The notes beneath the pieces are model-generated. The model was given only the letters and a program-made list of their open reading frames with translations, had not been told where the DNA came from and searched no databases. A stretch of 64,000 nucleotides of DNA, taken from NCBI GenBank assembly GCA_015664885.1, contig DQPL01000131.1:124001-188000 (forward strand), given 5' to 3'. Source of the stretch: Gemmatimonadota bacterium (GTDB taxonomy: Bacteria > Gemmatimonadota > Gemmatimonadetes > Longimicrobiales > Gaopeijiaceae). Position 1 is the first letter of the stretch; each line of letters starts with the position of its first letter. The translations under genes were made by a program, and so were the position numbers. Below, piece after piece: positions 1 through 45,327 of the stretch.

Positions 1-552
1 ATGTCCGACCGCCGCCCCATCTCCGCGGCGGGCATGAGCACGTTCGGCCGCGGCCGCAACTGGGGCTCCGCCTGGAAGCGATTCATCCGCGAGAACTCCG
101 ACCGCTCCCACTACTTCTACATCCAGAAGACAACGCTGCCATACGAAGACAACTACCTAGACCTGGATCCGGGCGTCACCGATCCGTTGGGGTTGCCCGT
201 CATTCGCATAACCGGACACTACAAGAAGAATGAGCTGGCTCTCGCGGCCTTCATGCAGGATCGAGCTGTGGAGTGGTACCAGAAGGCTGGAGCGACGGAG
301 ATCGTGCGCGGGGGCCTTGGAAATGCCATGGGCGCTTCGACGCACGCGTACGGTGGTACTCGTATGGGAGACGACGCCGAAACCAACGTCGTAGATCGCT
401 GGGGCTTCTCGCATGAGGCGCCCAACCTGGGTGTGCTCGGCGCCTCGGTGATGGGCACGAGCGGCGCGCGTAACCCAACGCTCACCGCACAAGCGCTCTC
501 CTGGCGTACGGCACAACACCTCGTCGAGAGCTGGAGCGACATCGCCGAGTAG
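1..552 (+). CDS. GMC-family oxidoreductase, C-terminal part (cut by window edge)
   Basis: The last 183 residues of a GMC-family flavoprotein oxidoreductase, which oxidises alcohols or sugars using FAD. The FAD-binding N-terminal half lies to the left of the window, so the ATG at base 1 is internal. What is visible is the GMC C-terminal domain: 'STHAYGGTRMG' at about 113-123, whose His115 fits the GMC active-site His region, and 'TSGARNPTLT' at about 153-162, the usual second catalytic region. The protein ends in an ordinary way at a TAG. The next gene follows in the same direction after about 85 bases, and both probably end at the terminator near 1900. The family is clear; the substrate cannot be read. 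Confidence 0.88.
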   Translation: MSDRRPISAAGMSTFGRGRNWGSAWKRFIRENSDRSHYFYIQKTTLPYEDNYLDLDPGVTDPLGLPVIRITGHYKKNELALAAFMQDRAVEWYQKAGATEIVRGGLGNAMGASTHAYGGTRMGDDAETNVVDRWGFSHEAPNLGVLGASVMGTSGARNPTLTAQALSWRTAQHLVESWSDIAE

Positions 553-30382: not shown

Positions 30383-31459
30383 CTACCGCCCCGCTTCCGC
30401 CCGCTCCTCATAGCGCGCGCCACTCAGCACGCCCGCGATCGCGTAGTTCCCTTCGTGGCAAGCATACTCGTACACGCGGTCGCCGAGGGTCTTGAACGGA
30501 ACCTGGCCGCTCCACGCGCTGGTGTAGGTCGACGGGTCATCGATCGTGAACTCGTAGAGCATGGTCTCGTCATCAACTCGAGTGAAACGCTCCGTCACCT
30601 TGCGATCCGCCGACGGGTGGATGCCGAGGAACTCCTGATCGGAATTGATATTGGTCGTCTCGACCACGAGCGTATTGCCTTCATACCAACCCCGGGAGTC
30701 ACCGAACCAGGGCCGCAGCTCCTCGCCCAGCGCTTCGGGGTCACTCAGCCGAATGATGCGCACGTCGTGCACCATCTCCGCCATGATCATGACGTAGTGG
30801 GCGTTCTGCACGATGGTGTAGTTGTTGTTGTACCAGTAGTTGGGCAGCATCGGCGGACCGGCGCTGGACCCGAAGGAGACCAGGCAGCGTTCGGCGTTCG
30901 GGCGGAGCTCCGGATGGTCGTATTGACTGAACTGGCTGCGGAACTTCGCCCGGTCGATCATGCGCTGGCGAGCCCCATCCGTCAGCGACGGGATGCGTCC
31001 GTCCGTGGGACTCATGACGAGCGAGCTCCTGGGCTCACCGTTCACGATGGCGACTTTGTCGCCCGGCGCCCTATAGACCTCGTTGTAACAAGAGGTCCCC
31101 GAGTCGATGCAGATCGGGTCCGTACCACCTGCGGGAGGCGGTGCGCGATCGGGATCGCTTGCGGCGTTGGTGCGCGCGACGAGCTCGGCCTGGCCGGTCT
31201 CGATCTCGGTGACCTTGTCCCAAGTGAGCACGGGCTCCCAACCAGCGGGGCGCTGGAGCGGAGTCAGCGTCGCATTGGTCCAGTTTCCTTGCAGGTCGGG
31301 ATGACCGTGCACGGTCGTTGGGACTTGCCACTCCCCCGAATCGGCGGGACGGGTCTGAGCATCCGCGGAGCGGGGCAGAGCCGCCGCGAACATTATCAGG
31401 GCAATCGCAACGGTCGCGGAGTGCTTGAGCGGAGACGAGGTCGAGAGAGTCACGGTCAT
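30383..31459 (-). CDS. Secreted protein of unknown function ('PDLQGNW' type)
   Basis: A 358-residue exported protein with a signal peptide ending near SADAQ (residue 35). The opening 'GHPDLQGNWTNATLTPLQR' and later 'GRIPSLTDGARQR', 'WFGDSRGWYEGNTLVVETTN' and 'VTERFTRVDDETMLYEFT' resemble a widespread group of secreted proteins in Acidobacteriota and Gemmatimonadota whose function is not known to me. Cysteines are few ('DSGTSCYNE', 'ERCLVSFG', 'EYACHEGNY'). It stands alone: convergent with hemolysin III, and upstream lies the decayed kinase. Exported location is well supported; nothing more is claimed. Confidence 0.72.
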   Translation of the reverse strand: MTVTLSTSSPLKHSATVAIALIMFAAALPRSADAQTRPADSGEWQVPTTVHGHPDLQGNWTNATLTPLQRPAGWEPVLTWDKVTEIETGQAELVARTNAASDPDRAPPPAGGTDPICIDSGTSCYNEVYRAPGDKVAIVNGEPRSSLVMSPTDGRIPSLTDGARQRMIDRAKFRSQFSQYDHPELRPNAERCLVSFGSSAGPPMLPNYWYNNNYTIVQNAHYVMIMAEMVHDVRIIRLSDPEALGEELRPWFGDSRGWYEGNTLVVETTNINSDQEFLGIHPSADRKVTERFTRVDDETMLYEFTIDDPSTYTSAWSGQVPFKTLGDRVYEYACHEGNYAIAGVLSGARYEERAEAGR

Positions 31460-31579
31460 CTTGCTTCCTCCGAGCAGACAGACGTTCCTCGAAGGCGTCC
31501 GCCCGAGTGCGCGGACCCTTCAGATCTCAAATATGCGAACCGGGGCCCAGTCCAGCTAGTGAGAGGGCGGCGAGAGCAC

Positions 31580-33326
31580 CTAGGCCGACGCTTGCGGAGC
31601 GTCCCTAACGTCGAGCGCGGCTCTCACGCGCTCGCGGAGCTCCGCCCTGGTGAAGGGCTTCCTGAGTAGAGCGCCGAGACGGTCCTTGAATTGCTCTTCC
31701 ACCGCCTTGTTGTCGATGTAGCCGCACATGAAGAGCACCAGCGTCTCGGGCGAGACCGTCGCCAGGCGGTCGGCCAACTCGGGTCCCTTCATCCGCGGCA
31801 TCACAACGTCGGTCAAGACCAAGTCGACCGGTGAGTCGAGCCGGCCAACTTCCCGATCGCCTCCATCTTCTGGCTCTGCCGAAGCTCGTTCTCTTTGTGC
31901 CTCTCGTCGGTGATGTCCTGCACAATCATCTCGAAGGCAGGCTCACCGTCGGCCAAGCGAATAATCTTGCCATTGAGCCGCACGGAGATCAGCGAGCCGT
32001 CGGCTCGGAGCCAATCGACCTCCCAGTTCCCGACCGCCTGCGTCTGCAGAGCCTCGTCGACGAGTCGAGGGCGTGCCTGGGGTGACGCGTAGAGCGAATC
32101 CGCTCCGACCTCCATGAGCGCGGTCGCGGAATCGTAGCCGAGCATCGAGACCAACGCCGCGTTGACCTCTAGGAAACGACCGTCCAGCCTCGCTAGGGAC
32201 ATGCCGAAGACCGCATTGTCGAGGATCGACTGGTAGCGCTCGCGCGTGGCTCGCTCAGACTCTTCGGCGCGCTTTCGGCTCTGCAACGTCTCGTCGAACT
32301 GCTGAACGACGGCCCGGAACTCCGTCGGGGTCCCCTCAGGCACGTGAACGGACGTGCCCCCCTGCGTGTCATCAGCACCCCGCTCGCGAGCTCACGCAGC
32401 GCTGAACTGATGCGCCGGTACGAAAAGCCGGCGAAAAGCATGCCCACCAACAGAACCAGGAGCGTCGCGCTGATCTGCCGTGCCGCCGCGGCCCTCGCCG
32501 GTCCGAAAATGGTTTCCGCGGGGACGCCGACGTAGACCCACCAGCCATTCTCGAGCTCGATCTGACCCCATGCCCGCTCAATGTCTTCGAAGTCTGGGCC
32601 GCGGGCGATCGACCGGCCGGGTGCAACGAGCTCGTCGGTACCCCTGCGCGGGGGCAGAGGCTGTCCGACCCATTGCTCTGCGTTCAGCGAGCGGGCGATG
32701 ACGATGTGGTCGGCCGTCTCGATCGTGACGAGCACTTCGTCCTGGCGATCGCCGCTCATGAGTTCCGCGAACCCAAACAACGACACCGCACCGGCAATGG
32801 CACCCGCGAATTGCCCTTGCTCGTCCAGGACCGGTGCCACGAGTGGAAGCACCCACGTACCGCTCAGGTCACTGAGCAGTGAGTCTCCCACGAAATACCC
32901 GGGGTCGTCCGCCATGGGTCGGAACCATACCCAGTCCGCCGACGAGGCCTCCTCCGGGATTGGCTCGGCGGAGCATAGCGACCTGCCATCGCGGTCTACC
33001 GTGGTGGCACTGGAAACGAAGAGGATGATGTTGGCGAGCGTCTGCATCGAGTTGTCGCACGGCGTTCCCGTAACGAACTCCATGCCTAACCCCGCCGAGG
33101 CGTTGGTCAACCCGGCCTCGGCCTGCGCAAGGAACTGGCGGAGGCTCGAAGCTGTCGCCTCGGCAATGGCGAGCGACTCCGCCTCAGCTGTTTCCACTGC
33201 CCTCTGCGACTCTCGGTACCCCCACTAGACCTGAAGCGCGACCAATGGGATCGCCAACGCCGCGACCAGAGCAATGAGTTGCGCCGTGAGCGAACGCGGC
33301 CTGATGGGATTGAAGGCGAACGACAT
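31580..33326 (-). pseudogene. Decayed hybrid sensor histidine kinase
   Basis: Remains of a membrane sensor kinase in order: start ATG 33326 (overlapping the ApbE stop as TGATG), first TM helix 'LIALVAALAIPLVALQV', an in-frame TAG at 33227-33225, a Cache-type periplasmic sensor (about 33197-32480), a second TM helix, then a frameshift at a G6 run (32357-32362). In the new frame follow a HAMP-like end ('EFRAVVQQFDETLQ') and a PAS domain. The H-box begins 'QSQKMEAIGKLAG' and breaks off between about 31824 and 31840. The rest of the kinase and the first half of the receiver are missing. The receiver resumes at 'DLVLTDVVMPRMKG' and ends 'ALLRKPFTRAEL'. Three different lesions make a functional protein unlikely. 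Confidence 0.85.
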
Positions 33327-34348
33327 CACGCCCCCCGATGTGACGCGAAGCCCGTGGTGCGCACCGCCTCGCCGGCCTTGCTCACCACCAACCCCTCGAC
33401 CCCGTCGAGCGCGTCCAGTAAGCGGACGCCTTTGTCAGGTCCCAGCACCATCACCGCGGTCGACAGTGCGTCGGCGGCCATCGCTGTGGGCGCAACCACC
33501 GACACTGATGCCGTATGGCTGGGAGAGTGGCCCGTGCGGGGATCGATGATGTGATGCGCGCTCCGGTCCTCCGTGAACGACTGCATATAGTCCCCCGAGG
33601 TGGCTATGCAGCCGCCCGCGAGACGAACGAAATCGAGGGTGCCGCGCGCGTCCCGGGGATCCTGCACGGCGACGGTCCAAGGCTCATTCGGCGATCCCGC
33701 GCCGCCGCTCGCCATGTCCCCTCCGGCGTCAACGAGCACACGATCGGCCCCCGCCGCCACCAGCGTGGCGAGGGTGCGGTCGACGACGTAGCCCTTCGCG
33801 ATCCCGTCGAGCGTGACCGACATGCCAGGGCGACCGAGCTCGATGCCAACGCCGTCAATGTGCACGCCTTCGTGCCCCACCACCCCGAGGGCGTTCTTCA
33901 CGGCGAGGGGGTCTGGCAGCCCTTCGCCGCGCGCGGCCCGCGAGGCGTAGAGCCTCAAGAGCGGCGCGACGGTCGGGTCGAATGCGCCCTCGCTCATGCG
34001 CGCGTACTCGAGCGCCTGAGACATCACCTCGAGCAGCTCCGCGGGCGCGTCATCGACACTGCCCGCCGCATTCAGAATCGAGAGTGGACTGTCGGACCGG
34101 TAACGACTCAAGATCGCCTCCAGCCGGGTCATCTCCGCGAAGGCGTCGTCGACCATCGCCCGTGCCTCAGCCGCATCGGGATGCACGACGGTCACGGTGA
34201 CGAGCGTCCCGAGCCGCGTGCGTGTGAGGCTTACGCGATGGAGAGCCGCTCGTCGCAGCAGCTCGGCTATCAGGCCGGTGCCGAGCGCAGTTCCGACCCC
34301 AGCGACCGCGCCGATCCGGAGCACCTGTCTGCGCGTGAACTCAGCCAC
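33326..34348 (-). CDS. apbE: FAD:protein FMN transferase (ApbE)
   Basis: A 340-residue exported enzyme that links FMN covalently to a Thr or Ser of membrane flavoproteins such as RnfG/NqrC/NosR. The Tat-like start 'FTRRQVLRIGAVAGVGTAL' is followed by ApbE motifs: 'EMTRLEAILSRYRSDSPLS', 'GAFDPTVAPLL', 'VTLDGIAKGYVVD', 'ADRVLVDAGGDM', and 'TSGDYMQSF' with 'HHIIDPRTGHSP'. It overlaps the end of the NosR-like gene by 8 bases, so that protein is the obvious substrate. The stop overlaps the start of the decayed kinase. Confidence 0.93.
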   Translation of the reverse strand: MAEFTRRQVLRIGAVAGVGTALGTGLIAELLRRAALHRVSLTRTRLGTLVTVTVVHPDAAEARAMVDDAFAEMTRLEAILSRYRSDSPLSILNAAGSVDDAPAELLEVMSQALEYARMSEGAFDPTVAPLLRLYASRAARGEGLPDPLAVKNALGVVGHEGVHIDGVGIELGRPGMSVTLDGIAKGYVVDRTLATLVAAGADRVLVDAGGDMASGGAGSPNEPWTVAVQDPRDARGTLDFVRLAGGCIATSGDYMQSFTEDRSAHHIIDPRTGHSPSHTASVSVVAPTAMAADALSTAVMVLGPDKGVRLLDALDGVEGLVVSKAGEAVRTTGFASHRGA

Positions 34349-36491
34349 GGGATGCCGCCATGGTGTCCGATACCCGGAGCTGCACGAGCCGGGGGAGTAT
34401 GATCTCCATGTCGTGCCTGCAGACGCCGGCCTTCTCGATCAGCTTGGTCTCGCAGACGTTGCACCGAACGCACTCCTTGAAGTCCACGACCTCGCTGCGG
34501 ATCGCGCCGGTCGGGCACCCCTGCTCGCACACCTTGCAGTGCCCGCACTGTTCGACGCGGCGGATGCGTTTCAGCGAGATCAGCGAGCCGATCGCGAGCG
34601 CCGCACCGAGCGGGCACACGTACCGGCAGTAAAAGCGCGGCACGATCGCGGACGCGACCAGAAAGCTCAGCGCGATGCCCCACAACAGGACCGAGGTGCT
34701 CGGGAAGAAGACCGTGCCGAACGGCTCCACGTATTGGTACAGACTGACGTGGCTGCCGGCGATGGCGGGGATCAGGATCCCGGCAAGCAGGGCGTATTTC
34801 ACCCACAGCGCGCGGTCGTGCACAGCTTGCGGCACCTTCTTGCGGAAGCGCGCGGGCACGACGTTTTCGAGCAGGTCCTGCAGGGCGCCGAACGGGCATA
34901 GGAAGCCGCAGAAGATGCGACCGAAGAGCACCGTCGTAATCACCGTGAAGGTGACCATGAGTAGGAGCGCCAGGTCGTCGAAGTACACGGAAGGTCCAGC
35001 CCAGATGCCGCTCGTGATGTGAGAGACGGACAGGAATCCCCCGTCGATCCAGCCAAGGAAAACGAGCGTGACGGCGAGGGAGACTGCGCGCATCGATCGC
35101 TTTTTCATGAAGAAGGCGAGCGTGGCGAGCAGCAGCACCACGGCTGTCGCGCCCAGCCGCTTCACTTGAGTTCGTTCGAGAGCACGCGCGAGGATGGTCT
35201 CGTCCTCGACATATACGAGGTCGAGCTCGCCGAGGTTCGAGGCCGGGGCGAGCGAAGCGGTGGTCGTGCCGAGCGCGTCGGCCGAGGATGCTGCCCCCGG
35301 TCCCTCCGCGGCTGAGGTCGTCACGGAAGCGGTACTGCCCTCGACGGTGGCCGCTGGCACGCTGGACGCTGCGTCGCTCGGTGATTCGACCGTCCCCGGC
35401 ACTGTCTCTTCCAGGTCCCTGTCAGCCTCGACCGCCTGAGCTGCCGCCACGAGCGCATCGGCCGCGGCTCCACGACGCGCCTCGAGCGTGAGGTACTCGA
35501 CCGCGAAGAGCTCCAGGTTCGGCCGCAGATCGAACAGGATCTCGAACGGCCTGGTGATGTCGATGCGTGCGTCCAGGATCATGGCGCCCGTGAGCCGTAC
35601 CTGGTCGTACATGACGCCGCCCGCGGCCAATCCAAAAGGAAGAACCTGGCCTTCGGGAGTCGGGATCGTGTCACCGTCTTGAACGACCGACCACCCTTCC
35701 CGCCTGAAGTACCGGAGCCGCGGGCCGTCCACGCCATACGCGAAGACATGCCCACCCCCCAAGAACTCGCGCGCGCGGTACGCGCTAGCCAAAGCGTCCG
35801 TGCCGACGAGGCGCTCGCCGAACGCATCGTCGAACAGGTGCACCAGCGACATCTCCGCCATGCCGATGCGGCTGTTCACGACCATCACCTTCACGAGCTC
35901 GGTTTCGCGTAGCTCCAACCACGAGAGTGCGTTCGCGTCCTCGATGACTCCGGGGGCTCTAGCCACCCGCGTGAAGTACGCCTCGGCCACCCGGCGAGCC
36001 GCGTTGCGCATGCCCAGCGAGATCGCCCGCACGCTGACTGTCGCGCGCGAGATGCTTTCTACGTCCCGGAAGGGCCGGAACGCCTCTCCGATGTGCTTGT
36101 CCGCGTATTGCTCCTGAAAACCGTAGGGCCGCAGGAAGTCGCCGCGACTACTACGCATCGACTCTACGTAGTCCGTAATGCGCATGCCGGTCAGGCGCCC
36201 GTCGAGGCCGAGACCCACCAGCATTCCGATGGGGGCGCTATACCCGCTTCTCTCTGGGGGGACGTCGGCGGTATGGAAGACGTAGCCGACCAGGCTCTCC
36301 GTTCCGGAACCGGCGCTGAACGCCTGCATTACTGTGGGATCCGTGCCCCACTCCACGAAGCGGTCCGCACCCGGCATCACCGCGTGCATCAGGTCTTCTG
36401 ATACGTCCCGTATGCGCTGAGCGGCCACCTCGGCGGGGATCAGCAAGGCGAGGGAGAGCGCGCACCACAAGGTGCGAGAGATGAGCGTCAT
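34341..36491 (-). CDS. NosR/NirI-like FMN and iron-sulfur membrane protein
   Basis: A 716-residue protein. After a signal peptide (ending EVAAQ) comes a periplasmic FMN-binding domain; the likely flavinylation site is Thr151 in 'VESISRATVS', where the usual Gly of S-G-A-T is Arg. A variable Ala/Ser/Thr-rich linker leads to about five TM helices with Cys motifs 'CGFLCPFGAL' and 'CRYVCPLGAAL', then two ferredoxin-type clusters, 'CGHCKVCEQGCPTG' and 'CVRCNVCETKLIEK', of which the second looks incomplete. NosR proteins move electrons across the membrane to periplasmic reductases. There is no nosZ in the window. The start at 36491 gives the cleanest signal. ApbE is coupled downstream. Confidence 0.88.
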   Translation of the reverse strand: MTLISRTLWCALSLALLIPAEVAAQRIRDVSEDLMHAVMPGADRFVEWGTDPTVMQAFSAGSGTESLVGYVFHTADVPPERSGYSAPIGMLVGLGLDGRLTGMRITDYVESMRSSRGDFLRPYGFQEQYADKHIGEAFRPFRDVESISRATVSVRAISLGMRNAARRVAEAYFTRVARAPGVIEDANALSWLELRETELVKVMVVNSRIGMAEMSLVHLFDDAFGERLVGTDALASAYRAREFLGGGHVFAYGVDGPRLRYFRREGWSVVQDGDTIPTPEGQVLPFGLAAGGVMYDQVRLTGAMILDARIDITRPFEILFDLRPNLELFAVEYLTLEARRGAAADALVAAAQAVEADRDLEETVPGTVESPSDAASSVPAATVEGSTASVTTSAAEGPGAASSADALGTTTASLAPASNLGELDLVYVEDETILARALERTQVKRLGATAVVLLLATLAFFMKKRSMRAVSLAVTLVFLGWIDGGFLSVSHITSGIWAGPSVYFDDLALLLMVTFTVITTVLFGRIFCGFLCPFGALQDLLENVVPARFRKKVPQAVHDRALWVKYALLAGILIPAIAGSHVSLYQYVEPFGTVFFPSTSVLLWGIALSFLVASAIVPRFYCRYVCPLGAALAIGSLISLKRIRRVEQCGHCKVCEQGCPTGAIRSEVVDFKECVRCNVCETKLIEKAGVCRHDMEIILPRLVQLRVSDTMAASRG

Positions 36492-36516
36492 AGGGCGAAG
36501 GCCTAGCGCGCAACCG

Positions 36517-38256
36517 CTAGCGCGCGACCGCCATCCCGTCCTTGTGAGGCGTCGAGCCACCTGTCATCACACCGGTCTCGGCGTTGAACATGATTCCCTG
36601 GGCACCGCCGACGCCTCCTCGCGTTGTTCTGCGGCGGATCTCATGACCCCATGCCTCTAACTGCATCAACACATCTTCGCTGATCCCCGGCTCGACCGTG
36701 ACCCTCATGCCACTGTTGTGATTGATGCGCGGGATCTCGACCGCCTGCTGCATGTTCATGCCGAACTCGACCACGTTCAGGAAGATCTGAACGTGCTGCT
36801 GCGGCTGCACCGAGCCACCCATCGCGCCGAAGGTCATGAAGAACTCGCCGTCCTTGAACGCCATGGCCGGGATGATGGTGTGGAAGGGGCGCTTGTGCGG
36901 CTCGACGACGTTGGCGTGGCCCGGCTCGCGAGAGAAGAGTCCACCTCGGTTCTGGAGCGTGTAGCCGGTGCCGGGAGGCACCAGACCGGAGCCGAAGCTT
37001 GAAAAGAGACTATAGATGAACGACACAGCATTGTGGTCTGCGTCCATGACCTCGAGCAGGATCGTGTCGCCGTCCCCATTGAGGCCGGACTCCGGGCGCT
37101 CCATGGCTCTGGTCGCATCGATGCGCTGGAACTGACTGCGCGCGTACTCGGTGGAGATCATCTCCTGGATGGGCAGATCGTTGAACTCGGGGTCCGCGTT
37201 CCACTTGTCGATATCCGCGTAGGCCAACTTCTTGGCCTCGATGAAATGGTGCAGGTACTCGGCGGAGTTGTGGCCCAGGGCACCCATGTCGACGTTGCCC
37301 AGGATCTTGACCATTTCCAGCGCCGCGATGCCCTGGCCGTTCGGCGGCAGCTCGTACAGGCGGTAGTTCTCGTAGTCGGCGTATATGGGTTCGACCCACG
37401 TCGAGGTATGATCCGCGAAGTCCTTCATGGTGAAGAAGCCGTCGTGCTCGTTCGAGTAGGCGACCATCGTCTCGGCAAGGGAGCCCTTGTAGAACGCGTC
37501 CCGACCCTCTGCTGCGAGCAGTCTGAACGTGTTGGCCAGGTCGGGATTCCGGAACACATCCCCCGCTCGGGGTGCCCGCTCACCATCGATGAGCCAGGTG
37601 GCTCTGGTCGACGGTTCCGTGCTTCTCTCGAGCCCCCGCCATTCACTCGCGATGATCGGTGATACCGGAAAGCCGTGCTCGGCATAGTAGATCGCGGGCT
37701 GTAGCACCTCGGCCATGCTCATGGTGCCGTACTTCTCCAGCACCTCGAACCAGCCATCCACCGCGCCGGGAACCGTCACGGAATAGATGCCGCGAATCCG
37801 GTCCATGTCGTGCTTGTCGAGCTTCTCGTTGAGCGCCTCGAGCGTCATGGCATACGGTGCGCGACCACTCGCGTTGAGGCCGATCAGCTTCTTCTCGGCA
37901 GCGATGTAGACCATGATGAACGCGTCCCCGCCCAAGCTCGTGCTGTGCGGTTCGACCACCGTGAGCACAGCCGCCGTCGCGACGGCTGCGTCGATGGCGT
38001 TCCCGCCCGCCGCGAGGATGTCGAGACCGGCGTTCGACGCGAGAGGCTGACTCGTGGCCACTACACCACGCAGGCCAGAGACTGGAGACCGCAGTGTCTC
38101 GTATTCAAAAGTCTTTGGAGTCTCGGACCTGGATACCCGGTCAGCCTGCCCTCCTGCTTGTTGTGCTTCTGCCCGCTCGAGACCGAGGCTGAGCAGGAGG
38201 CATGGCAGCAGTGCGAGCACGGTCACGAAGCGACGCTCGAGCATGGAGTTCAGCAT
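36517..38256 (-). CDS. ggt: Gamma-glutamyltransferase
   Basis: A 579-residue periplasmic enzyme that cleaves gamma-glutamyl bonds, for example in glutathione. It is made as a precursor that self-cleaves before a Thr. The signal peptide ends near RAEAQ. Landmarks are 'SNAGLDILAAGGNAIDAAVA', 'GVVATSQPLAS', and the processing site 'GDGDTILLEVMDADHNAVS', with Thr398 as the likely nucleophile, followed by 'FGAMGGSVQPQQHVQIF'. The start at 38256 is preferred because GAGGG lies upstream; the ATG 12 bases earlier is possible. The gene lies 25 bases before the NosR-like start and 65 bases after the oxidase gene, so it likely shares a transcript. Products (Glu, Cys-Gly) would feed amino-acid use. Confidence 0.92.
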   Translation of the reverse strand: MLNSMLERRFVTVLALLPCLLLSLGLERAEAQQAGGQADRVSRSETPKTFEYETLRSPVSGLRGVVATSQPLASNAGLDILAAGGNAIDAAVATAAVLTVVEPHSTSLGGDAFIMVYIAAEKKLIGLNASGRAPYAMTLEALNEKLDKHDMDRIRGIYSVTVPGAVDGWFEVLEKYGTMSMAEVLQPAIYYAEHGFPVSPIIASEWRGLERSTEPSTRATWLIDGERAPRAGDVFRNPDLANTFRLLAAEGRDAFYKGSLAETMVAYSNEHDGFFTMKDFADHTSTWVEPIYADYENYRLYELPPNGQGIAALEMVKILGNVDMGALGHNSAEYLHHFIEAKKLAYADIDKWNADPEFNDLPIQEMISTEYARSQFQRIDATRAMERPESGLNGDGDTILLEVMDADHNAVSFIYSLFSSFGSGLVPPGTGYTLQNRGGLFSREPGHANVVEPHKRPFHTIIPAMAFKDGEFFMTFGAMGGSVQPQQHVQIFLNVVEFGMNMQQAVEIPRINHNSGMRVTVEPGISEDVLMQLEAWGHEIRRRTTRGGVGGAQGIMFNAETGVMTGGSTPHKDGMAVAR

Positions 38257-38333
38257 GGTTTCCCTCATGTGGCTTTCGGGATTTTCACGACAATAGTATG
38301 ACCCTCAAGTCTGCGGCGCTGTTCAGAGCCCCC

Positions 38334-39434
38334 TCATTCCATATCTGCGAAGAATTGCGTGAGACCGTCCATCACGCGCTGCGCTTCTGTCGCGTTCGGC
38401 TCCAGTGACGATTCGCCGCGCTCCCAGGTCTGACCCAGAAGGATGCCGTCCTGTCGAGGAATCATGGACAGACCGCTGGCACCTATGAGGTAGTCCACCT
38501 CCGGCTGCGGCAACAAGACCGTGAGTTGACCCTTGATGGGTATGAGTTCGTCGTCACCGAACAGCTCCTTGGAGCCCAAGCCGGTGCAGTTCACGATCAG
38601 TGCTTCGGGCAGAGCCAGCAGCGCTTGCAGGCTGTCGAAGTCGCGCACGACTAGGTCACCTCCCGCCAGCAGAACATCGCGCAGCACCGCATCCAGATAG
38701 CGCGATGGCTCGATGAGCATGGTCCAGAAGCGTCGGGCATAGGCTCGCGGGAAGGGATGCTCGCCCGGGCCTAGCTGCACGTTCTCCGGCGCCAGGTCTC
38801 CTAGTGGGTCTGGACTGGACGGTTCTGCCGGCAGCGTCTCCGACAAAGCGTATCGTTCGATCCAACGAACGCCGTAGTGGTCGCTGACGAGATCCTGGAA
38901 GTAGCGATGAGCCAGGCGCGCCGCGCGGCGTTGTTGGGCGAGATAGGCCGGCGTGCGCATGTCGGTGTCGCCACCGATCCCGGCCGAAAACCAGGCCGCG
39001 GACATGTTGGACGTCGTTCTCGGGGGCACGTCCTTGGCGTAGATCGTCACGTCCAGGCCATGTCTCTGGAGGAGTCGCGCCGTAGCGAGGCCGACGGCCC
39101 CGCAGCCAATGACGGCGGCCCTGGTCTCACCAGTCTTGAGCGCCTCTTCCATCGCCAGATGCGCCGTGCCCCACGACATCGAGACGCCGTTCGAGCCGTG
39201 GCCGTAGTTGTGCACAACGGTCGTTTCGTCGAAGCGCTCGACCTCGAGGCGGAATCCGGACCTGCGAAACGGACGCAAGCCGACGGTGGTCCGGATCACC
39301 CGCTCGGGGGACACGTTGACCTTGGCGAAGTGCCTCGAGGGGCTGGTGGCTCGCGCACAACTGCCCAGGCTCGCCCCCAATACGGCGACGCCGGCTACCT
39401 TCAGCAACTGACGGCGATCGAGCTTGCTATCCAT
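38334..39434 (-). CDS. D-amino-acid-oxidase-like flavoprotein with permuted C-terminal motif
   Basis: A 366-residue FAD oxidoreductase with a Tat lipoprotein-like signal ('DRRQLLKVAGVAVLG', then 'LGSC'). The FAD Rossmann motif 'AAVIGCGAVGLATARLL' lies at 107-122, not at the start. Before it, at 52-92, is the stretch that normally closes D-amino-acid oxidase: 'VGLRPFRRSGFRLEVE' and 'VVHNYGHGSNGVSMSWGTA'. The rest follows the usual order ('NCTGLGSKELFGDD', 'SMIPRQDGILLGQTWE') and ends where that motif is expected. This reads as a circular permutation. It probably oxidises a D-amino acid or sarcosine-like substrate in the periplasm. Confidence 0.82.
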   Translation of the reverse strand: MDSKLDRRQLLKVAGVAVLGASLGSCARATSPSRHFAKVNVSPERVIRTTVGLRPFRRSGFRLEVERFDETTVVHNYGHGSNGVSMSWGTAHLAMEEALKTGETRAAVIGCGAVGLATARLLQRHGLDVTIYAKDVPPRTTSNMSAAWFSAGIGGDTDMRTPAYLAQQRRAARLAHRYFQDLVSDHYGVRWIERYALSETLPAEPSSPDPLGDLAPENVQLGPGEHPFPRAYARRFWTMLIEPSRYLDAVLRDVLLAGGDLVVRDFDSLQALLALPEALIVNCTGLGSKELFGDDELIPIKGQLTVLLPQPEVDYLIGASGLSMIPRQDGILLGQTWERGESSLEPNATEAQRVMDGLTQFFADME

Positions 39435-39555
39435 AAGACGCGTCCTCCCTCGCCCACATTGCTACGCTCATCAGTTGGTGGCAATTGCCTGCGTCTCCGC
39501 GGCGACCCCACTTTGTGCGCTCGGCCCGCACCCCGAGGTGACCGAAGGAGAAGTC

Positions 39556-41433
39556 ATGCGCTCTACCCGTCTGATGATCACAAGCGTCGCATTGCTCGCA
39601 TCAGTTGTCGTCGAGTCGGCATGCGCCCCGCAAGAAGTCGAAGCACCGATGGCCGTCGACTGGCCGATGTATCGAGGCAACCTGGCTGGAACCGGGTATT
39701 CGCCACTGACGCAAATCACGACGGGGAATGTCGCGGAGCTGGCCGGCGCCTGGACCTACTCCCTGCGCAGTGCTCCGCCGACCGGCGCTGACGGCTCGAG
39801 CCAGACCCGCCAGCGAGAGCCGAACTCGCAGGTCACGCCGATCGTGGTCGGCGACGTCATGTACCTGTCTGCCGTGGACCGCGTGGTCGCGCTGGATCCA
39901 ACGACAGGTGCAGAGATCTGGCAGCACGCGGTCGAAGACGGCGCGCCCTCGCGGCGCGGCGTGGCGTACTGGGCCGGCGAGGACGGCACGCCCGCCCGCA
40001 TCATCTTCACGGCGGGGACACGGCTGGTAGCGATCGACGCAGCGACCGGCGCGCTGGCGGCGGACTTCGGCCAGGGCGGCGAGGTCGACATGGTGATCCC
40101 CTACAACTCGGTGCCGCTGGTGTACGAGAACATCGTCGTGGTCGGTGCGAATACGCCGCGCGGGACCAGTGGGGGCATCGGTAACGCACGCGCATTCGAC
40201 GCACGCACGGGCGCCAAGCTCTGGGAGTTCAGCTCCGTTCCGCAGCCGGGGAGCGTTGGACACGACACCTGGGAGGGTGACAGCTGGCAGGGCCGTCTCG
40301 GAGCCAACGCCTGGCCATTCTACTGGACTGTGGACGAGCAGCGCGGACACGTGTACCTGCCGCTCGCCTCGCCCATCCCTTTCGCATACGGCGGAGACCG
40401 CACGGGCGCCAACCTGTTCGCGAACTCGCTGGTCGCAGTCGACGTGCGGAGTGGTGAATATGTCTGGCACTTCCAGACCATCCATCACGACCTGTGGGAT
40501 CACGACCCGCCTGCGCCCCCCGTGCTCTTCCCCATCACGCGGGCCGGTAGCACGGTCGACGCACTCGGCGTAACCACCAAGTCCGGGTACATCTACATCC
40601 TCGATCGCGAGACAGGTGAGCCGATCTTCGGCGTTGAAGAGCGCGCGGTGCCGGCGAGTGATGTTCCCGGTGAGGTGACCTATCCGACCCAGCCATTTCC
40701 AGTGAAGCCTCAGGCGCTGGCGCGGACCAGTTACGAGCCGAGCGACATAGTCACCGCCGAGGACACGTCACCGGCACACGCCGCGGCGTGTGCCGAGCTG
40801 GTGGCAAGCGTGGGAGAGATCTACAACGAGGGCGCATTCTCGCCGTGGGTGTACCGCGAGGAAGGCGCGTCGCCCAGGGCCACTCTGCTGTTCCCTGGAC
40901 TGGTCGGCGGGCCCAACTGGGGTGGCCCCGCGTTCGATCCCAACTCCGGATACGTCTTCGTCTTCAGCCAGGATGCGGGTTCTTTCGCCTGGGTGGAGGA
41001 GGCGCCCGAAGGCTCGGCCGTGCCCTACCGGCGGAACGGCCCCCGACCTTCGGGCTTCGACGTGCGCATGGGGGATGCACGCTGGCCGTGCCAGAAGCCG
41101 CCCTGGGGCCGCATGACCGCCATCGACGGCTCGACCGGTGACATCGTGTGGGAACGCGCCGTCGGCATCACCGAAGGGCTACCCGCGGACCGGCAGAACA
41201 CCGGTCGGCCTGGGCGTGCAGCTGCGATCGTAACGGCCGGGGGCTTGCTGTTCGTGGCATCGACCGACGACAACCGTCTGCGCGCACTTGAAGCCGAGAC
41301 CGGCCGGGAACTCTGGGTGGTCACCTTGGAGCGGAGAGGCAACGCCGATCCCATGACGTACCTGGGCGCGGACGGGGCGCAGTATGTGGTGATCGTGGCT
41401 ACGGATGCCGTGGTGGCGTACAAGCTGCCGTAG
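39556..41433 (+). CDS. PQQ-dependent dehydrogenase, membrane-glucose-dehydrogenase-like
   Basis: A 625-residue exported quinoprotein without a cytochrome domain. The signal ends near 'VVESACAP'. The propeller opens 'DWPMYRGNLAGTGYSPLTQI' and carries 'TPIVVGDVMYLSAVDRVVAL', 'WHFQTIHHDLWDHDPPAPP' and 'GGPNWGGPAFDPNSGYVFV', typical of the PQQ glucose/quinate dehydrogenase group; Asp in 'LWDHD' is the likely catalytic base. AAGGAG lies 6 bases before the ATG at 39556; open sequence upstream overlaps the divergent gene and has no support. It would reduce quinone or a separate cytochrome. The sugar or alcohol substrate is not known. Confidence 0.87.
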   Translation: MRSTRLMITSVALLASVVVESACAPQEVEAPMAVDWPMYRGNLAGTGYSPLTQITTGNVAELAGAWTYSLRSAPPTGADGSSQTRQREPNSQVTPIVVGDVMYLSAVDRVVALDPTTGAEIWQHAVEDGAPSRRGVAYWAGEDGTPARIIFTAGTRLVAIDAATGALAADFGQGGEVDMVIPYNSVPLVYENIVVVGANTPRGTSGGIGNARAFDARTGAKLWEFSSVPQPGSVGHDTWEGDSWQGRLGANAWPFYWTVDEQRGHVYLPLASPIPFAYGGDRTGANLFANSLVAVDVRSGEYVWHFQTIHHDLWDHDPPAPPVLFPITRAGSTVDALGVTTKSGYIYILDRETGEPIFGVEERAVPASDVPGEVTYPTQPFPVKPQALARTSYEPSDIVTAEDTSPAHAAACAELVASVGEIYNEGAFSPWVYREEGASPRATLLFPGLVGGPNWGGPAFDPNSGYVFVFSQDAGSFAWVEEAPEGSAVPYRRNGPRPSGFDVRMGDARWPCQKPPWGRMTAIDGSTGDIVWERAVGITEGLPADRQNTGRPGRAAAIVTAGGLLFVASTDDNRLRALEAETGRELWVVTLERRGNADPMTYLGADGAQYVVIVATDAVVAYKLP

Positions 41434-41464
41434 ACTCAGTCCCGCGCCCTAAACGTGCCGAAGT

Positions 41465-41495
41465 GGCGACCCCGCATCCAAGTTGCGGGGCCGCC
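41465..41495. terminator. Bidirectional terminator-like hairpin
   Basis: GGCGACCCCGCA (41465-41476) pairs with TGCGGGGCCGCC (41484-41495) with one mismatch and a 7-base loop. It lies in the 68-base gap between two convergent genes (ending at 41433 and 41502). No T-run is seen on either side. Confidence 0.55.
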
Positions 41496-41501
41496 CTCCT
41501 G

Positions 41502-43796
41502 CTAGTACGCCAGCGGTCCCGGCCGTATCTGGAACTTGACGATCTTGCTCGACGTTCCCGCCCCACCCTCGATGTGCCACGGCGCATTCGTACCGAAGTC
41601 GGCCCAAACGCCACGCCCCTTCCATCCGGCGTCCGGATCGTCGATGCGACCATCCAGCCCGCGAGAGTAGAAGCCCATCGGGTACGGCACCCGCATGCGC
41701 ACCCACTCGCCGGAGTCGGGATCCAGCGCTAGCAGGGCATCGGATGTGGAGCCGTTTGCGATGGGAATGTCTTCGCCCAGCCCCAGCGTATTGAACTGGT
41801 CCACCCAGTTGTAATAGTGGAAGTCGGCACCCCCCGCGGTAACCGCATTCTTCATTTGGGGTCCCGGAGCGGGGTAGAGCGTCCAGCCCTCGGGGCAGTG
41901 CTGGCCGGTGGCTTCCGGCCCGTTCAGCACCTTGCACTTGCTGCGGTCGAAGCTAGCCAGGTGGCTGCTGCCGGAGAGAGCGGTCCAGATGATGCCATCG
42001 CGGGTGATGTCGATGCCGCGCGGCGAGAATCCCCACTGGTCCGGGGGCACGGCTGAATTCTCGAAGGGCGGCTCGTAGACCTCGGCTTTGCAGGTCAGCG
42101 GCGGATTGTCACCCAACTCCAGCCGGAAGATCCGGCCGGGCACCCCGCCCGTGCGCGCAATCCAGATGGAGTTGTCTACCGGATTCACGATGATCCCGTA
42201 TGCGAACCCGGTGAGCTGCGTGTCTAGGTTCGGATCTGCCTCACCGCGGCCTGAATTCCAAGGCTTCGTAATGCGTCCGTCGCCATTACTATCGATGACC
42301 GTGGGGCACCAGCCTTGAGCTGCCTCGGCACGCGCCGCGAGGCGCGCCGGCGCCTGGTCTCTGACGCGATCCACCAGCGCACCCGCCGGGCCGTCCCAGA
42401 GAACGCTGCTGCTCACCCAGCCGATGACGCGACTGTCCCCGCTGAAGTACATCGTATTCTCCGAGTCCTCACCTAACTGCAGATGGTGGGTCCCGAAACA
42501 CGTATCGATGAGCGTAAACTCTTCCGTATCCGGGTGGAAGACCGACGCCTGACGGCCGCTGAAATTGATGGGCGCGTACTGGGCGTACTTGTTGGACGAA
42601 CCCTCGCGGCACCACTCGGGGTTGTTCGGAGAATTGCGGATCCGGGACGTGAGCCACACGCGGCCCTCCTGATCCATCATCGGATTATGGACGTTGGCCG
42701 GACCGTTCAGGATGACCTCCTCGCCCCAGAACGCCGAGGGCTGGAAGCCGGGCGCGGTAGAAAAGTAGGACTCGGTCTCGGGGTCCCAAACGGGCACGCG
42801 CAGGTCGCGAGCCTTGTTCTTGCCAGGGTTCACGATCAGCAGCTGGTCGTCCGACATCGACACGCCATACACGGCGCCACCGGCGTTCACGGAAGGGTCG
42901 CGCTTGTCTGAGGCTACCTCGTCGTGCACGTAGGACGTGCCATCACCCCAATCCCAAAGCGTGAGCACCACGTTCCGCTCCTCACCATGGGGCCGCGGTG
43001 GCTGCGGCGGCACTTCGCCTGCCATGATGCGGTCGGTCCAGTCGGCAAACTGCGGCACGGCGCGCTCCATACCCATCCCGGCGACCTGCATGCTCATGCG
43101 CGGGCCTCGCTGGCCAAAGTTCAGCCGATGACTCCACACCTCCTCGCTGGAAGCGAAGCTGCCATCGATATGGCTGGTCTCGCGCGTGATCTGGTTGCCG
43201 AGCTGATGACAGAGCTGACAGCCCTGCTTCAAATTGTCGATCCAGGCAGCTTGTGAGCGGATATTGGTGCTGATGCCGTTGCCCGACGGGCCCGTGCCCG
43301 GAAAATCACTCTCGGACGGGACTTCCATGAGCGAGTACCAATAGCTGGCCGGATATACGCTCGCTTCCTCCTGCGGCGTCTCCGGATAATGCGCCGCCAG
43401 AACCAGGTCGTCGCCGGGCGCGGCGGCGAGTGGCTCGGAGTCGGCCAGGCCGTAGCCCCGGACCCACACTTCGTAGCTCGCGTCCGGGAGCTCAGGCAGA
43501 ACGAAGCGCCCATCGTCGTCACTCACCACAATCTTGGTGAAGCCGGTCTCGAGATCGTCGGTCTCGGCAATCACCCAGACGCCGGCCTCGGGACCGTCAC
43601 GTCCCTGCACCACGCCGCTGATGACGGCATCGTCCTCGGCCGCGCCTACCACGCTCGAAGTCCCCATGCGGTCGCCCAGCGTACAAGACGACGCTATGAG
43701 CACGACCGCCAAGCAGGCACCGAGCGAAAGCATGCGGTGCATGACGTCACGGACGGACGTGGATGGGGCGGCGGACAGCTGCGGCGTCGAGCTCAT
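41502..43796 (-). CDS. Exported propeller protein with carboxypeptidase-regulatory-like and CxxCH segments
   Basis: A 764-residue predicted lipoprotein ('VVLIASSCTLG'). First comes a carboxypeptidase-regulatory-like domain ('ISGVVQGRDGPEAGVWVIAE', then 'DDGRFVLPELPDASYEVWVRG'). Next is a segment with one heme-type motif 'CQLCHQLGNQITR'. The remaining ~500 residues form a beta-propeller of the virginiamycin B lyase-like type, with 'DGIIWTALSGSSHLASFDR' and 'NPVDNSIWIARTG' as examples. I infer an exported oxidoreductase- or lyase-like protein, but no function is known for the combination. The start at 43796 gives the lipoprotein signal; the ATG at 43742 is an alternative. Divergent from the PQQ sugar dehydrogenase gene. 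Confidence 0.72.
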   Translation of the reverse strand: MSSTPQLSAAPSTSVRDVMHRMLSLGACLAVVLIASSCTLGDRMGTSSVVGAAEDDAVISGVVQGRDGPEAGVWVIAETDDLETGFTKIVVSDDDGRFVLPELPDASYEVWVRGYGLADSEPLAAAPGDDLVLAAHYPETPQEEASVYPASYWYSLMEVPSESDFPGTGPSGNGISTNIRSQAAWIDNLKQGCQLCHQLGNQITRETSHIDGSFASSEEVWSHRLNFGQRGPRMSMQVAGMGMERAVPQFADWTDRIMAGEVPPQPPRPHGEERNVVLTLWDWGDGTSYVHDEVASDKRDPSVNAGGAVYGVSMSDDQLLIVNPGKNKARDLRVPVWDPETESYFSTAPGFQPSAFWGEEVILNGPANVHNPMMDQEGRVWLTSRIRNSPNNPEWCREGSSNKYAQYAPINFSGRQASVFHPDTEEFTLIDTCFGTHHLQLGEDSENTMYFSGDSRVIGWVSSSVLWDGPAGALVDRVRDQAPARLAARAEAAQGWCPTVIDSNGDGRITKPWNSGRGEADPNLDTQLTGFAYGIIVNPVDNSIWIARTGGVPGRIFRLELGDNPPLTCKAEVYEPPFENSAVPPDQWGFSPRGIDITRDGIIWTALSGSSHLASFDRSKCKVLNGPEATGQHCPEGWTLYPAPGPQMKNAVTAGGADFHYYNWVDQFNTLGLGEDIPIANGSTSDALLALDPDSGEWVRMRVPYPMGFYSRGLDGRIDDPDAGWKGRGVWADFGTNAPWHIEGGAGTSSKIVKFQIRPGPLAY

Positions 43797-43923
43797 GGCC
43801 AGGCCTCGTTCGAATCGAGAACGATGGTGCGGAGGAGCGGCAAAAGTAGGTGGCGGTGCGGAAGAGGGCCAACGGTGATATCTGTCCATCTTCGGGTTCG
43901 GCCACACATAGGAGTCCAGCCGC

Positions 43924-45327
43924 ATGTCCACGTATCGCCTCGCCGCTGTGGCCCTGCTGATCGCCACCCCCGCGTTCGCGCAAACCGCCAACGACCCCTT
44001 CCCGGCGCCGATCGCGGCAACCGCCGGGGTGATCGTCGTCGGGTTCCAGGAATTCGCGACCCTCCCGGACATGGACGGGCGTCCAGCTCGGCCCATGCTG
44101 CTCATCGATGAGCCCGGCAGTGGCCGCCTGTTCGCGAACGACATGCGGGGACCGCTCTACACCGTCAGCTACGACGGTCGCGTAGCGCTCTACCTCGACG
44201 TGAACGCACCCGAGTGGGACGTACCCGTCGAGTCGTCAGGCAGAGAGCGTGGAATGCAGAGCTTCGCGCTTCATCCGCAGTTCAACGAGCCCGGCACCGC
44301 CGGATACGGGAGGCTCTACACGTGGACCGACACCGAGGACACGAGCCCAACACCGGACTTCACGCCCGGCGGGGGCCAGGACGCGCACGACACCGTACTG
44401 CTCGAGTGGACCGCGCTCGACCCTGAAGCAGCGACCTACGACGGAGGCCCACCGCGACATGTGCTTCGCCTGGAACAGCCCTTCGGCAATCACAACGGAG
44501 GTCGGATCGCGTTCAACCCGCGGTCCTCGCCGGGAGATCTGGACTTCGGGATGCTGTACGTCGGCATCGCGGACGGCGGCAGCGGAGGTGATCCCTTGGA
44601 TCTCGCGCAGAACCTCGGTTCCGCGTTCGGCAAGATCTTTCGCATCCAACCGCTCGGTTCGAACAGCGCGAACGGCCGTTACGGAGTGCCCGCCGATAAC
44701 CCATACGCCGGGGACGGGAATGACCGCACCCTGGGCGAGATCTATGCGTCGGGCCTGCGCAACCCCCAGCAGTTCGGCTGGGATCCGCAGAACGGCAACT
44801 TCTTCGTAGCGGACATCGGCCAGAACATCATAGAGAAGCTCAGCCTCGCTACCTCCGGAGCGGACCTCGGTTGGAACACGTGGGAGGGCAGCTACCGCTT
44901 CATCAGCCGCTCCGAAGTCGACCTGGCCAACCCGCAGGGTGAGCCCTGGATCACGTATCCGGTGGCCGAGTACGGACAGCTCGATCCTCTTCTACAGCGC
45001 CAGTCCGCGGTGACCGGCGTCGTAGTCCCCCGCGAGGGCACGATTCCCCAGTTGCAGGACCGGGTCGTCTTCGGTGACTTCCCCAGCGGCGAGATCTTCC
45101 ACATCGACGCAGACAACCTGCCGTCCGGTGGGCAGAACACGATGGGCCGGGTGCTCTTTAGAGACGAGGGCGAGCCCAAGACCCTGCTCCAGCTCATTCA
45201 GGCGAAGAACGCCGAGCAAGGGCGGGATGTGGCCACACGCTCCGATCTGCACTTCGGCACGGGGCCTGGTGGCCGGGTTTTCGTGCTGAACAAGCAGGAC
45301 GGGGTGATCCGGGAGGTCGTGCGTTAG
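43924..45327 (+). CDS. PQQ-dependent sugar dehydrogenase (soluble type)
   Basis: A 467-residue exported enzyme of the soluble glucose dehydrogenase/GSDH family, which oxidises aldose sugars with PQQ in a six-bladed propeller. The signal ends at 'ATPAFAQ'. Landmarks are 'GMQSFALHPQFN', 'GNHNGGRIAFNP' (the His of the catalytic motif), 'VGIADGGSGGDP', 'NLGSAFGKIFRI', 'ASGLRNPQQFGWDP' and 'VADIGQNIIEKLS'. It is in a plus-strand pair with a small AbrB-type gene 18 bases downstream. Confidence 0.9.
   Translation: MSTYRLAAVALLIATPAFAQTANDPFPAPIAATAGVIVVGFQEFATLPDMDGRPARPMLLIDEPGSGRLFANDMRGPLYTVSYDGRVALYLDVNAPEWDVPVESSGRERGMQSFALHPQFNEPGTAGYGRLYTWTDTEDTSPTPDFTPGGGQDAHDTVLLEWTALDPEAATYDGGPPRHVLRLEQPFGNHNGGRIAFNPRSSPGDLDFGMLYVGIADGGSGGDPLDLAQNLGSAFGKIFRIQPLGSNSANGRYGVPADNPYAGDGNDRTLGEIYASGLRNPQQFGWDPQNGNFFVADIGQNIIEKLSLATSGADLGWNTWEGSYRFISRSEVDLANPQGEPWITYPVAEYGQLDPLLQRQSAVTGVVVPREGTIPQLQDRVVFGDFPSGEIFHIDADNLPSGGQNTMGRVLFRDEGEPKTLLQLIQAKNAEQGRDVATRSDLHFGTGPGGRVFVLNKQDGVIREVVR

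Follow-up and report, generated by a model that had tools for sequence, protein, structure and literature searches.

D-amino-acid oxidase (DAAO) is among the best-studied flavoenzymes, and the order of its fold has been taken as fixed. The protein described here shares with the DAAOs of human, pig, Rhodotorula and Rasamsonia (Pfam family DAO, PF01266) the core fold, the HNYGHG flavin loop, the carboxylate-binding arginine and the dinucleotide-binding motif, but it carries their C-terminal ~60 residues at its N terminus, begins with a twin-arginine translocation (Tat) and lipobox signal, and has a serine in place of the active-site tyrosine. Its best solved match, by sequence and by structure, is human D-aspartate oxidase (DASPO; 6rkf), from which it differs in its swapped order and in having no match for the arginine residues that contact the side-chain carboxylate there. 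Conventional bacterial DAAOs, found in Streptomyces, Mycobacterium, Nocardia and some Gemmatimonadota, are homologous to it over the full length once it is reordered, but they keep the conventional order and lie on the opposite side of a branch with 100/100 support. Glycine oxidase ThiO, sarcosine oxidase and MnmC share the superfamily fold of the core (Z 17–18), but their sequence similarity is far lower and their NCBIfam models score well below cut-off. In Gluconacetobacter diazotrophicus, a predicted Tat-exported L-amino-acid oxidase is encoded beside a cytochrome c gene (PMC5053998). This enzyme offers a parallel in how it may work, but it was rejected as a characterised family member because it belongs to a different flavoprotein family (PF01593 amine oxidase, not DAO); it is not reported to be permuted. 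Searches of the open-access literature for circular permutation combined with DAAO, flavoenzymes or oxidoreductases found no earlier description of a permuted DAAO family, and databases annotate the permuted proteins only generically, as 'FAD-dependent oxidoreductase'.

The window analyzed here is a 64,000-nucleotide stretch of contig DQPL01000131.1 from a Gemmatimonadota bacterium of the Gaopeijiaceae. It encodes a flavoprotein (Table 1) that a sequence-only reading had described as a circularly permuted, DAAO-like protein with an N-terminal Tat signal. The motif positions given in that reading were borne out, with GLRPFRRSGFRLE running from residue 52, HNYGHGSNG extending up to residue 83, and GCGAVG at residues 110–115. 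The N-terminal tail segment reads GLRPFR...VVHNYGHGSNG...WGTA over residues ~44–100, and the protein's C terminus is the point where the tail segment of a DAAO would normally start. The conventional order of the DAAO/DASPO family, with the Rossmann fold first and the HNYGHG segment last, is therefore not the order of this protein.

Table 1 Features of the permuted flavoprotein gene in the window.
Feature	Position (nt)	Strand	Basis
Gene of circularly permuted DAAO-type flavoprotein	38334..39434	(-)	366 aa, ATG start
Residues 1–26, twin-arginine signal (DRRQLLK) with lipobox-like LGSC at its end	39357..39434	(-)	Read from sequence
Residues 44–100, closing segment of a conventional DAAO moved to the N terminus: strand GLRPxR, strand, VVHNYGHGSNG flavin loop, helix	39135..39305	(-)	Pfam DAO 301–351; 6rkf residues 280–329; AlphaFold2 elements
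Residues 100–105, short linker from old C terminus to old N terminus	39120..39137	(-)	Sits between both aligned segments
Residues 104–364, core, Rossmann fold through helix preceding old tail	38343..39125	(-)	VIA-align to DAAO/DASPO
Residues 110–115, GCGAVG dinucleotide-binding motif	39090..39107	(-)	Sequence
Arg54, counterpart of DAAO carboxylate-binding Arg	39273..39275	(-)	Alignment; invariant 61/61
Ser323, at the place of the active-site Tyr	38466..38468	(-)	Alignment; Tyr in 40/61 relatives

Profile and pairwise comparisons recover the two parts of the fold in swapped order. The window protein passes the cut-off of the DAO superfamily profile PF01266 with 104.8 bits (curated cut-off 27.9), with residues 106–363 matching profile positions 2 to ~298/299 and positions 301–351 matching upstream. 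In the PDB, 6rkf is matched by residues 104–355 at its positions 13–264 and by residues 47–93 at 280–329. Because the two swapped segments together match this solved D-aspartate oxidase at 1.2e-26, and because dozens of independent genomes preserve the order, the arrangement is not due to chance. When the window protein is reordered, it aligns with DASPO and human DAAO as a single stretch, 1–319 of 326 residues, and the scores rise somewhat (99.5 vs 97.1 bits for 6rkf and 77.8 vs 67.9 bits for yeast DAAO). A profile made from nine conventional bacterial DAAOs (A3) finds the permuted proteins as two swapped domains and, in the mirror test, the permuted profile finds the conventional proteins as swapped pieces. 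The window protein matches the permuted profile collinearly, tail before core; no solved structure in the PDB gave a collinear full-length match to that profile.

An AlphaFold2 model calculated with 61 sequences has a mean pLDDT of 93.2 and a pTM of 0.88. In this model residues 41–100 lie within one compact domain at pLDDT 96–99, forming strands 46–57, 62–68 and 71–77 and helix 87–99, and a short loop leads from there to the Rossmann strand at 105–109. The sequence-only reading had proposed comparing such a model with DAAO, and the core does superpose: on DASPO with Z 23.5 (2.2 Å, 253 residues, DASPO 2..264), and on residues 1..269 of human and pig DAAO, from model residues 104..364, with Z ~22.6 (VIA-align). 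The structural aligners preserve sequence order, so that the superpositions cover the core only and say nothing about the place of residues 44–100. From homology and the confident one-domain model, we infer that this segment fills the place of the DAAO residues after 269. Both sequence and structure identify DAAO and DASPO as the closest solved relatives. With profile, pairwise, structural and phylogenetic evidence all supporting a permuted DAAO-type flavoprotein, we consider it very likely, indeed close to certain, that the protein is permuted and belongs to the permuted family. Taken as a whole, membership in a widespread bacterial family of circularly permuted DAAO-type flavoproteins is the best explanation of this gene, and a probable one.

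The active site combines a conserved arginine with a variable partner. Arg54, which we take to be the counterpart of the carboxylate-binding human R283 and yeast R285, is present as in the DAAO/DASPO family. The active-site tyrosine of that family is absent, with Ser323 in the column that presumably corresponds to human Y228 and yeast Y223; across the 61 family sequences this column holds Tyr in 40, His in 14 and Ser in 4. The flavin loop is nearly invariant in the same alignment. The window protein has unusual residues at S81, N82 and Q335, positions at which Gly, Gly/Ala/Ser and Gly, respectively, prevail in the family, and its sister species shares all three as well as S323. The DAO signature around HNYG is fitted by the window's VVHNYGHGSNGVSMSWGTA; in its strict form the signature is matched by 25 of 61 relatives and by 4 of 9 conventional DAAOs. 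In the predicted reaction, Arg54 would hold the carboxylate of a small and probably D-configured amino acid while the Cα–N bond of this substrate is oxidized, and the resulting imino acid would hydrolyze to a 2-oxo acid and ammonia. The N-terminal segment would fold back to its former site next to the flavin.

Judged from these residues, D-amino-acid oxidation appears the most likely chemistry for the permuted family, and for the window protein specifically its chances are about even. Because the tyrosine is absent and S81, N82 and Q335 are unusual, the substrate of the window protein may differ. A permuted enzyme devoid of D-amino-acid activity, having moved to other amines, imino acids, or modified or L-amino acids, has somewhat less than an even chance of being the correct description. 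It would account for Ser323 and the divided Tyr/His/Ser column, for the retention of the lineage's unusual flavin-loop residues in the sister copy, and for the second-carboxylate arginines of DASPO finding no match in the alignment with the reordered window protein. However, the carboxylate-binding arginine is invariant, and every one of the closest solved relatives is a DAAO or DASPO, none a glycine or sarcosine oxidase.

Features of a Tat lipoprotein, namely a twin arginine, a hydrophobic stretch and a lipobox cysteine, can be read in the window protein, and most permuted members look like Tat-exported lipoproteins. Cys26, in a lipobox-like L-G-S-C, is found in 14 of 14 members of one set and in nearly all of the 61 family members, and the twin arginine together with a cysteine near residue 26 is nearly invariant. 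Because Cys26 is so well conserved, the window protein is probably exported by Tat and lipidated, rather than being a free periplasmic enzyme. The signal would export the folded, FAD-loaded protein, and lipidation of Cys26 would anchor it to the membrane. A second permuted clade, from Rhizobium, Bradyrhizobium, Mesorhizobium and Nonomuraea, lacks this signal. The apparent export and lipid anchor also raise the possibility, a tentative one, that the enzyme is not an oxidase that forms hydrogen peroxide but a periplasmic dehydrogenase whose electrons pass to the respiratory chain or to a c-type cytochrome. A cytochrome c gene directly behind the permuted gene of Kozakia, genes encoding redox proteins of haem or NosR-like type in the vicinity of some gammaproteobacterial members, and the Tat-exported Gluconacetobacter oxidase beside its cytochrome c (PMC5053998), albeit from another flavoprotein family, point in this direction. 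This association is nevertheless sporadic, with most loci having no adjacent cytochrome, and the closest characterized relatives use oxygen.

Permutation is a trait of the whole family and not of a single odd gene, and it reaches well beyond the locus on which the sequence-only reading was based. A scan of GTDB genomes found at least 581 stretches encoding relatives, and in all 80 of the best 80 of these loci the permuted profile matches as one collinear domain, so that the same order is seen in homologues, as that reading had suggested checking. The best 80 loci include Acidobacteriota, Gemmatimonadota, Pseudomonadota, Bacteroidota, Verrucomicrobiota and a Zixibacterium, with cultured Sphingomonas, Sphingopyxis, Dokdonella, Dyadobacter, Ekhidna and Luteolibacter among them. 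One sphingomonad order has the gene in 10 of 99 sampled genomes. Records from a plasmid collection add Niveispirillum, Kozakia, Rhizobium, Bradyrhizobium and Nonomuraea (Actinomycetota), bringing the permuted form to at least seven bacterial phyla, with the actinomycetotal and rhizobial members remote. Within the window's phylum, permuted homologues occur in 43 of 200 genomes (E ≤ 1e-30). The Gaopeijiaceae-level family, whose place in Gemmatimonadota is borne out by agreement between proteins of some members and named MAG loci (L017 with L046, L026 with L100), has homologues in 24 of 58 genomes, nearly all collinear and a few of them short, weak matches, and only permuted forms were seen there; the window genome itself carries a second permuted gene, on the same contig 113 kb away. 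The conventional profile gives a DAAO-type match in 66 of 298 phylum genomes, seven of them full-length and hence conventional (one divergent) and 59 ending at ~240–282, like the permuted core. Detailed reading of four permuted and all seven conventional genomes agreed with this profile-based classing. Because the permuted form is thus the usual DAAO type in the phylum (59 vs 7 genomes), surveys of D-amino-acid metabolism in bacteria could count too few cases of it if they demand the conventional order.

A single origin of the permutation is likely. In a tree that compares 33 permuted with 14 conventional sequences after reordering, the two forms split at 100/100 and in 100% of bootstrap trees; as this tree is unrooted and lacks eukaryotic DAAO, it agrees with a single origin without proving one. 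Repeated permutation, with independent events in, say, the exported clade and the signal-less rhizobial and actinobacterial clade, is improbable. In its favour, these clades are strongly divergent from each other, and one change between the forms received a support of only 75 in a first quick tree that used distant outgroups. Against it, the careful tree, with more conventional sequences, separates the forms fully, and both clades have the junction at roughly the same position. The permuted form would most simply have arisen when a DAAO gene was duplicated in tandem or fused, after which the outer parts were lost. No duplication intermediate with tails at both ends was found in the best 80 of at least 581 loci. 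Two candidates in which the conventional profile overran its usual end (G388 and G336) proved to be ordinary permuted proteins, and a match across the junction in Mycobacterium lentiflavum belongs to a conventional DAAO with a chance extension. In Mesorhizobium the permuted gene (L142:2792-3855) is annotated as two overlapping coding sequences; a natural split was rejected as the explanation, since the break falls inside the Rossmann motif and a frameshift is likelier.

That the order is an artefact of misassembly, a mis-called start or an overlooked second tail copy downstream can be dismissed as extremely improbable, for although the source is a fragmented draft assembly of 136 contigs, the paralogue on the same contig and dozens of independent genomes share the order, it recurs in Dyadobacter, Sphingopyxis and Luteolibacter among other cultured isolates, and a six-frame scan of positions 36001–41500 found each tail motif once, in the permuted gene, and therefore no second tail, which excludes the objection that the sequence-only reading had raised in advance.

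A natural permutant this widespread indicates that the flavin-binding tail of DAAO is movable. Permuted DAAOs supply natural scaffolds with relocated termini on which biosensors and biocatalysts could be built, and recognizing them exposes a family hidden by its generic annotation. A more far-reaching proposal, which we regard as speculative and rather doubtful, is that the single ancient permutation founded a separate branch of mostly exported, lipid-anchored DAAOs across many phyla, acting as periplasmic amino-acid dehydrogenases linked to the respiratory chain with a substrate range of their own; moving the N terminus off the flavin-binding strand may have aided membrane anchoring.

The orthologue in the sister species (G020:C5:158369-159275, L182) has an internal deletion of 191 bp that breaks its frame. 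Over the still-coding parts that flank the deletion, dN/dS between the two copies is ~0.13, so the gene was under purifying selection. The broken copy may reflect a recent loss or an assembly fault, and because of it the gene may be dispensable.

A γ-glutamyltransferase gene lies 65 bp downstream of the permuted gene on the same strand, followed by genes for a NosR-like protein and ApbE. The proposal in the sequence-only reading that the transferase supplies amino acids to the flavoprotein fared poorly: the two genes stay paired in the sister species, which supplies the genus's one other genome, but no relative of the transferase occurs in the flanks (up to 8 kb) of the best 80 of at least 581 related loci, and we rejected it as a metabolic partner. 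No metabolic neighbour is conserved family-wide in the flanks of these 80 loci. All four signal-less members seen (L139, L142, L143 and L144) have a gene for a TPP enzyme directly downstream; the three enzymes scanned resemble indolepyruvate/phenylpyruvate decarboxylase, that is, 2-oxo-acid decarboxylases, at scores below cut-off. The Kozakia gene is preceded by hydrolase genes, one encoding a PF00144 serine hydrolase, and followed by a cytochrome c gene. By association, the TPP-enzyme and Kozakia neighbours fit amino-acid chemistry. A BBE-type FAD oxidoreductase gene precedes the permuted gene in two of the four signal-less loci.

Several other neighbours were observed. The NosR-like protein, an unclassified protein (30383–31459) and a PQQ-type dehydrogenase of the window (within 30383–36560 and 39556–41433) have relatives near the gammaproteobacterial permuted genes L039, L042, L049 and L084; they were rejected as a functional module, since the recurrence is confined to a few gammaproteobacterial loci. 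The listed open reading frame of the PQQ dehydrogenase overlaps the start of the permuted gene (39424–39556), and an in-frame ATG at 39556, which opens a lipoprotein-like signal, is the likelier start. Beyond it, an 880-residue open reading frame (41502–44144) drew no match from Pfam or NCBIfam under the thresholds applied. In sphingomonads (L094, L097, L098, L099, L105 and L107), an hslU-like gene whose product starts MNxxLTPKxIVAALDxHIIGQ follows the permuted gene by ~60–70 bp. In L099 an hslV-like reading frame, whose family occurs in six loci, lies immediately upstream, and with hslV-like and hslU-like genes on its two sides the sphingomonad flavoprotein seems to sit between hslV and hslU.
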